A stretch of 64,000 bases of DNA, from contig CAMVRM010000003.1 of the NCBI GenBank assembly GCA_947169885.1, positions 1 through 64,000 on the forward strand. Reading direction: 5' to 3'. Below are positions 22,926 to 24,384 of this stretch, in pieces. This stretch comes from an uncultured Ruminococcus sp. (GTDB lineage Bacteria; Bacillota; Clostridia; Oscillospirales; Ruminococcaceae). A program made the translations under genes and the position numbers. The notes below the pieces were generated by a model that had not been told where the DNA came from, ran no database searches, and saw only the letters and a program-made list of their open reading frames with translations. The number at the start of each line of letters is the position of its first letter. Positions within the stretch are counted from its first letter, which is position 1.

Positions 22926-23591
22926 ATGGCAAACAGCTATGAGCGTTATCTTCATCGTGCAGCAACATTTGTCGGCGGCTATGCGGCGATGTATACAGTG
23001 CTTATCCGCCTGAATCTCGGCTCGTCACAAACAGTGAATCTCCTTAATACGCTGAGCGCCCTGCTCGGTGCGAACAAAAGGGAGTTTTTGCTCAGACTGT
23101 TGGGAACACTGCTGTTCGGCTGCTCAGTCTTTGCGGCTTCTTACCTGAAAAAGAAAGGTTGGACAGGTGTAAGGCTTTTATGCGGCGGTCTTTGCGCTGC
23201 AAGTTTTATAGTGCTGGGCTTCATGCCTGTTGAAGTTGACCACTGTGTCGGACTTTACCCGACTTTTATTTCAATGCCGTTTTTGTGGGTCACGTTCGGA
23301 AGTGCCTGCGGATATGCGAGCGCACCTATTTTCTCGACCAACAACTATCGTCAGCTGATCGGCGGACTTGCTGAGTATGCCGCTTCTCACGAAAAAGCAT
23401 CGCTCGACAAAGCAAAGTTCTTCGGCGGAACGCTTGTTGTTTTCCACATCGCTGCGGCGCTTTCGTGGTTCGCCTGCACTTGCTTTGCTGAAAAAGCTGC
23501 ATTCTTCGGCGTTATTCCCTGCATTGTGCTGTGTGCTTCTGAGTTAGCGCTTTCGCACGTTTTCGGAAAAGCAAAACTTCACAGAATATAA
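22926..23591 (+). CDS. Hypothetical multi-pass membrane protein
   Basis: Several hydrophobic segments; SD ggagg at 22913; ATG at 22926. Confidence 0.7.
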   Translation: MANSYERYLHRAATFVGGYAAMYTVLIRLNLGSSQTVNLLNTLSALLGANKREFLLRLLGTLLFGCSVFAASYLKKKGWTGVRLLCGGLCAASFIVLGFMPVEVDHCVGLYPTFISMPFLWVTFGSACGYASAPIFSTNNYRQLIGGLAEYAASHEKASLDKAKFFGGTLVVFHIAAALSWFACTCFAEKAAFFGVIPCIVLCASELALSHVFGKAKLHRI

Positions 23592-23599
23592 ATATCAAA

Positions 23600-23682
23600 C
23601 GCTGCCACCGGGTAGCGCAGACTTTAAAAAGGTCTCTGTATGTATCGTTAGGTCTTTGAAGATACATACGGAGACTCTTTTT
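23600..23682 (+). promoter_or_regulatory. Candidate riboswitch/attenuator leader of pnuC (possibly NAD+-II / pnuC-motif type)
   Basis: 7-bp stem CGCTGCC/GGTAGCG (23600-23617) with loop ACCG; loop ACC can pair with GGT (23631-23633) as an H-type pseudoknot; A-rich linker TTTAAAAA; followed by the terminator, then SD and pnuC ATG at 23695. Confidence 0.6.
23632..23682 (+). terminator. Intrinsic terminator within the pnuC leader
   Basis: 15-bp stem GTCTCTGTATGTATC (23632-23646) / GATACATACGGAGAC (23661-23675), one G-T wobble, then TCTTTTT. Confidence 0.82.
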
Positions 23683-23694
23683 GTTGGAGGAAAT

Positions 23695-24384
23695 ATGAAC
23701 TATTTTACTAAAACAGAACTTGCACTCTGGACAGGCTCGACAGCGGTCATAACTGCGGCTTTTTTTCTGTTCAGCATGAGCGGAGTCATAAGCCTTGTCG
23801 CATCGCTTATCGGAGTTACGGCTATAATCTTCGGTGCAAAGGGAAATCCGCTCGGACAGCTGCTCATGATCGTTTTTAGCTGTATCTACGGATATATTTC
23901 ATACGGTTTCTGCTATTACGGAGAGATGCTCACCTATCTCGGAATGACCGCTCCAATGGCGGTGCTGTCGCTTGTCAGCTGGTTCAGAAATCCTTTCAAG
24001 GGCAGCCATGCGGAAGTTGAGGTGGCAAAAACAGACCGCCGAGATATACGCATAATGCTTATCCTCGGCGGTGCTGTAACAGTTATATTTTATTTTGTGC
24101 TGAGGCTTTTCGGCACTGCGAATCTTATCCCAAGCACCGTTTCGGTAGCAACAAGCTTTTGTGCAGCATTTCTCACTTTTCGCAGAAGTGCATTCTTTTC
24201 GCTTGCATATGCGGCAAATGATGCAGTTCTGATAGTTATGTGGGTGTTAGCTTCGCTTTCCGACCGCTCATATGTTTCGGTAGCCGTCTGCTTCTGCGTG
24301 TTCCTGATAAACGACATCTACGCATTCCTCAGCTGGAGAAAAATGGAGATACGTCAAAGCAGTACCAAACAGCCTACTTCATGA
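23695..24384 (+). CDS. pnuC: Nicotinamide riboside/mononucleotide transporter PnuC
   Basis: Multi-TM protein with 'GNPLGQLLMIVFSCIYGYISYGFCYYGEMLTYLGMTAPMAVLSLVSWFRNP', typical of PnuC; SD ggagg before ATG 23695. Confidence 0.9.
   Translation: MNYFTKTELALWTGSTAVITAAFFLFSMSGVISLVASLIGVTAIIFGAKGNPLGQLLMIVFSCIYGYISYGFCYYGEMLTYLGMTAPMAVLSLVSWFRNPFKGSHAEVEVAKTDRRDIRIMLILGGAVTVIFYFVLRLFGTANLIPSTVSVATSFCAAFLTFRRSAFFSLAYAANDAVLIVMWVLASLSDRSYVSVAVCFCVFLINDIYAFLSWRKMEIRQSSTKQPTS

Follow-up and report, generated by a model that had tools for sequence, protein, structure and literature searches.

A probable guanidine-IV riboswitch leader ahead of a pnuC-family gene in an uncultured Ruminococcus sp.

The leader and its parts

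The window, a 64,000-nucleotide (64-kb) stretch of contig CAMVRM010000003.1 from an uncultured Ruminococcus sp. (GCA_947169885.1), contains a conserved regulatory leader at 23599-23686, directly ahead of a gene encoding a PnuC-family membrane transporter. The leader is very probably a guanidine-IV (GGAM-1/mepA) riboswitch that controls this transporter. Its parts are listed in Table 1.

Three elements described in the initial annotation of this stretch were recovered: the 7-base-pair (bp) hairpin P1, a terminator whose T-tract ends 12 nucleotides (nt) ahead of the start codon (ATG, 23695), and a pnuC-family gene lying downstream (PF04973, E 1.4e-31). The P1 loop ACC had been proposed to pair with GGT at 23631-23633. 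A GGT does occur there, but in the alignment of relatives (A2, below) it is found in the window only, the relatives having a GCAT-type terminator base at these positions, and the conserved partner is another GGT, located in the terminator loop at 23651-23653. The proposed mutually exclusive layout is real, with other competitors than those named: the hairpin 23619-23635 and the terminator, whose 5' arm is overlapped by the antiterminator 3' strand (23629-23635).

Table 1. Features of the leader and the adjoining gene (window coordinates)
Feature	Position	Strand	Basis
Possible -10 element TATAAA, overlapping the DUF1275 gene end; weak	23587..23592	+	sequence
P1 hairpin CGCTGCC-ACCG-GGTAGCG, 7 bp, loop ACCG at 23607-23610	23600..23617	+	sequence, covariation, fold
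Pseudoknot strand 1, ACC	23607..23609	+	covaries with 23653 (A-U/G-C, 140 loci)
Antiterminator hairpin AGACTTT-AAA-AAGGTCT	23619..23635	+	covarying in pnuC-linked group; minimum-free-energy (MFE) fold of partial transcripts
Intrinsic terminator hairpin, 16 pairs, arms 23631-23646 and 23661-23676	23631..23676	+	sequence, covariation, fold
Conserved terminator loop GTTAGGTCTTTGAA	23647..23660	+	sequence, alignment
Pseudoknot strand 2, GGT, within terminator loop	23651..23653	+	covariation, 140 loci and 28-row alignment
Terminator U-tract CTTTTT	23677..23682	+	sequence
Ribosome binding site GGAGG	23686..23690	+	sequence
pnuC-family membrane transporter gene	23695..24384	+	PF04973, 4QTN homologue, D176 and D207

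Conservation, covariation and linked genes

PnuC homologues were identified by protein search in 36 of the 150 genomes searched, the window's own genome included, and the relatives' loci comprised 29 (L003-L031). The leader core occurred in 27 of these 29 pnuC upstream regions, its invariant parts being the P1 sequence CTGCC-ACCG-GGTAG and a fixed 14-nt terminator loop, GTTAGGTCTTNGAA, from which L027 deviates. Alignment A2 consists of 28 rows, the window and these 27 relatives. Across P1, terminator and pseudoknot, 95.7% of its paired cells could pair compared to 87.2 +/- 0.6 after shuffling, and 20 of 27 pairs were changed on both sides compared to 8.3 in the shuffles, with neither value reached in any of 500 shuffles. 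When partners were slid out of register, paired cells fell to 33-45%. The outer three pairs of P1 showed covariation on both sides.

The variable pseudoknot pair (A23607 type with 23653) was read in 140 loci, made up of the relatives' loci and the listed pattern matches, and occurred as A-U in 117, G-C in 22 and G-U in one, with zero mismatches. As the search pattern let A/G and C/T vary independently at this pair, its covariation was not forced by the search. The covariation check foreseen for relatives' pnuC leaders thus favored P1, the terminator and the pseudoknot, with a partner other than 23631-23633, and covariation and gene association support the broader proposal that the pnuC-family gene is controlled by a pseudoknot riboswitch that includes its own terminator. 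Loop positions 5, 6, and 12 were G in the PnuC-, MATE-, Nim-, and SMR-linked groups, part of which was fixed by the pattern. The pnuC leader of L027 (around 1376) has the terminator loop TTAGGTCTTGTATGC in place of TTAGGTCTTNGAAG together with a G-U pseudoknot pair, and is possibly a variant aptamer.

A pattern scan of the genome contigs gave at least 115 stretches. Among the matches listed, 110 downstream genes included 73 PnuC, 23 MATE, 4 Nim-type, and 1 SMR, to which a re-reading of L080 adds one further SMR gene. The motif was distributed over several Firmicutes lineages and Coriobacteriia, and a model search placed it in 76 of the 249 genomes of the family. In the window's genome, a genome search returned a single motif copy and no SMR gene, and matches to the guanidine-I, -II, and -III riboswitches were not found there.

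Antiterminators were counted in those listed pnuC-linked loci whose linker measures 7 nt or more (n=86), taking the start of the terminator 5' arm as the 3' strand of the hairpin. Hairpins of at least 4 bp occurred in 82 of these 86 loci versus 12 of 21 MATE-linked loci, and those of at least 5 bp in 75 and 6, respectively. When linkers were given the arms of other loci, a permutation that leaves relatedness among loci in the statistic, the mean pnuC-linked score dropped from 12.26 to 10.74 +/- 0.26 (standard deviation), and 0 of 300 permutations reached the observed value. For 12 pnuC-linked loci with a non-standard arm, 12.21 was observed versus 8.63 permuted (0/500), while the MATE-linked loci showed no effect (4.6 observed, 5.14 permuted). 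The case for a covarying antiterminator situated between P1 and the terminator in pnuC-linked members is strong but not final. In MFE folding of partial window transcripts, AGACTTT/AAGGTCT was kept up to nt 23672, and the terminator won from 23674.

Other genes and elements also accompanied the motif. Nim-like proteins of the pyridoxamine-oxidase type were encoded downstream in L054, L069, L099, and L100, a second recurrent uncharacterised protein family in L082, L104, and L116, and a histidine kinase in L077. In L114 the motif lies ahead of a MATE gene in a Bacteroidota metagenome-assembled genome (Dysgonamonadaceae); Bacteroidota are outside the published phylum list for guanidine-IV, and the L114 contig could be a contaminant. 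A cobalamin riboswitch (290-475) shares the L010 locus with a guanidine-IV pnuC leader.

Upstream of the window leader, a DUF1275 gene (PF06912, 22926-23591) stops 8 nt 5' of P1. A homologue was present among the fetched loci in L021 only, which belongs to the same genus and has it likewise just upstream. The leader may be transcribed by read-through from this gene or from a start at the -10-like TATAAA at 23587. Clustered TATAAT-like hexamers occur 16-23 nt 5' of TGCC in relatives, and a sigma-70 scan of the window returned no full promoter match.

Class assignment, switching and rival explanations

The leader RNA of Raoultibacter timonensis emrE (construct 92 Rti) binds guanidine with a dissociation constant (KD) of 190 uM (PMC7736828). 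Model R1, built from pnuC leaders alone, matched the emrE (SMR) leader of this organism at L080 with 70.3 bits and an E-value of 5.9e-14, L080 being equated with 92 Rti by organism and gene, not by construct letters. It also matched the SMR leader L118 and the MATE leaders L033 and L057. As a model of pnuC leaders thereby finds a guanidine-binding emrE leader along with MATE and SMR leaders, the leader is assigned to guanidine-IV. Published traits of this class are a kissing loop or pseudoknot, a terminator, and an ON switch (PMC7736828, PMC11611296, PMC12186494), and PnuC is named among its target genes (PMC7736828). The same layout was found here, with P1 and terminator hairpins joined by a covarying pseudoknot, and all three target genes, SMR, MATE, and PnuC, were seen downstream of the motif. 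By spacing alone, the binding-critical G66, U67, and G72 of L. lactis fit G23652, U23653, and G23658, while a fit of G62 and U63 requires an L. lactis loop shorter by one nt.

The Rfam check for a known riboswitch, also foreseen in the initial annotation, came back empty. In the entire 64-kb window no Rfam 15 family reached the gathering threshold, and at E<=10 the only matches near the leader were of microRNA type, hitting the long hairpin by chance. Since Rfam 15 likewise has no match to the validated R. timonensis L080, the missing hit is no argument against membership.

During RNA synthesis, P1 would form first, the antiterminator 23619-23635 second, and the upper terminator stem third. 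With guanidinium present, the P1-loop ACC would pair with the GGT at the terminator tip, and this bound form would hold the lower terminator open, allowing RNA polymerase to continue into pnuC (ON). When guanidine is lacking, the terminator base (23631-23638 with 23669-23676) would capture the antiterminator 3' strand and transcription would stop. Guanidine binding by the window copy is expected, as is the ON direction by analogy with published relatives. The analysis itself shows a conserved core, covariation in P1, in the terminator and in the pseudoknot, a competing hairpin in the pnuC-linked group, the gene association, and the homology to a published guanidine-binding RNA.

The sole solved relative of the window PnuC found by sequence was the nicotinamide riboside transporter 4QTN (E 2.3e-24). 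In an alignment that left out the unlinked controls L182 and L183, position 176 was Asp in the leader-linked set versus Asn in 4QTN and three leader-less PnuCs, and position 207 was Asp versus Ser or Asn. Among the listed linked PnuCs, Asp176 occurred in 69 of 69 and Asp207 in 68 of 68 readable sequences, while position 187, a Trp in 4QTN, was never Trp in the 69. The two invariant Asp would fit a cationic substrate, and the window PnuC is proposed to move guanidinium or a related cation, possibly exporting guanidine. With somewhat less than even confidence, pnuC-linked guanidine-IV may be viewed as a subtype that would combine strand exchange with loop-loop steric exclusion and control a PnuC clade re-tuned to guanidinium by two Asn/Ser-to-Asp changes.

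Several observations weigh against the reading of the leader as a guanidine-IV switch with an antiterminator and an exporting PnuC. PnuC proteins are generally regarded as facilitators, and a facilitator would not drive cation export against the membrane potential. The leader was absent upstream of pnuC in 2 of the 29 relatives (L017 and L030), and binding or termination measurements for pnuC-linked members were not found in the openly accessible literature. Part of the antiterminator signal is non-independent by descent due to the conserved ATGC/GCAT sequence. Furthermore, 12 of the 98 listed pnuC-linked members have a linker below 7 nt and mostly lack the hairpin, so it is not a requirement of the class.

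The NAD+-II (pnuC-motif) riboswitch named as a candidate in the initial annotation, which would sense NAD+, nicotinamide mononucleotide (NMN) or nicotinamide riboside (NR) and turn pnuC off, shares with this leader the position upstream of a pnuC-family gene and the form of a small pseudoknot RNA. The NAD+-II RNA GCGGCGUUGCGUCC...ACGGCCGCUUAAAAACAAAAGGAGA is a translational OFF switch with an A5 strand and a pseudoknot that uses the ribosome binding site (PMC10085692). A visual comparison with the 55-nt sequence given there showed neither the A5 strand nor the ribosome-binding-site pseudoknot core in the window leader, and NAD+-II was rejected. In sequence and layout the window leader is unlike this RNA, which blocks the ribosome binding site, has an A5 triplex strand and is reported from Streptococcus only; the leader has a terminator and a core common to MATE and SMR leaders. 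The Rfam search at E<=10 returned no riboswitch, with the coverage of NAD+-II in Rfam not checked. NAD+ sensing is thus hardly credible, while the alternative that the initial annotation left open, a distinct regulatory RNA, holds in the form of the guanidine-IV match.

A leader acting as an attenuator or protein-binding element without a small-molecule ligand would agree with the strong terminator, which dominates the predicted fold at -40.8 kcal/mol. It is very improbable given the fixed 14-nt loop and the covarying loop-loop pseudoknot across Firmicutes lineages and Coriobacteriia, as well as the homology to an RNA for which guanidine binding in purified form has been published. Slightly less remote, still improbable, is a pnuC-linked guanidine-IV variant with an altered ligand, such as a guanidine derivative or another organic cation. 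The distinct target gene, the antiterminator particular to the pnuC group, and the precedent of Gd4v, which appears to have changed its ligand, speak for it; against it stands a loop core identical across the PnuC-, MATE-, Nim-, and SMR-linked groups, part of which the pattern fixed. The HMP-PP (thiS) riboswitch was also considered for its terminator-embedded design and dropped on gene association.

Significance and comparison with known systems

Guanidine-IV and its link to PnuC are already published. Reportedly, Salvail 2020 is a further paper on the class. The antiterminator of pnuC-linked members and the two invariant Asp of the linked PnuC proteins would both go beyond the openly accessible literature, and the covarying antiterminator offers a clean mutable test of the guanidine-IV switching mode. 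PnuC has been proposed as a guanidine exporter, tests of which were not found in the openly accessible literature, and the two invariant Asp offer a specific site for probing guanidinium transport by a PnuC. A "nicotinamide riboside transporter" annotated beneath a guanidine switch is probably not such a transporter, which points to a likely annotation error.

NAD+-II (PMC7749635, PMC10085692) is likewise a pnuC-family leader with a pseudoknot but is unrelated in sequence and fold, being a translational OFF switch of Streptococcus. The HMP-PP riboswitch (thiS motif, PMC6478431) resembles the window leader as a terminator-embedded aptamer with a pseudoknot, an ON direction, and an alternative stem that disrupts the terminator base, whereas its ligand and genes differ; it is set apart by description, not by sequence. 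The Gd4v motif (PMC9788692) has the same two-hairpin pseudoknot plan and terminator, whereas the window follows guanidine-IV in hairpin and genes. Within the window loop the fold offers only a weak 4-pair option containing G-U, no conserved hairpin inside the terminator loop was present in alignment A2, and the window positions that could correspond to Gd4v D1, a column given in a figure only, are all G.

The closest likeness is to guanidine-IV itself (Lenkeit 2020, PMC7736828), with two hairpins, a loop-loop pseudoknot, a second hairpin serving as intrinsic terminator, a conserved terminator loop, and SMR, MATE, and PnuC genes downstream. In the published model, overlapping alternative pairing is absent and steric exclusion is proposed (PMC7736828), whereas the pnuC-linked member adds a covarying antiterminator between P1 and the terminator.
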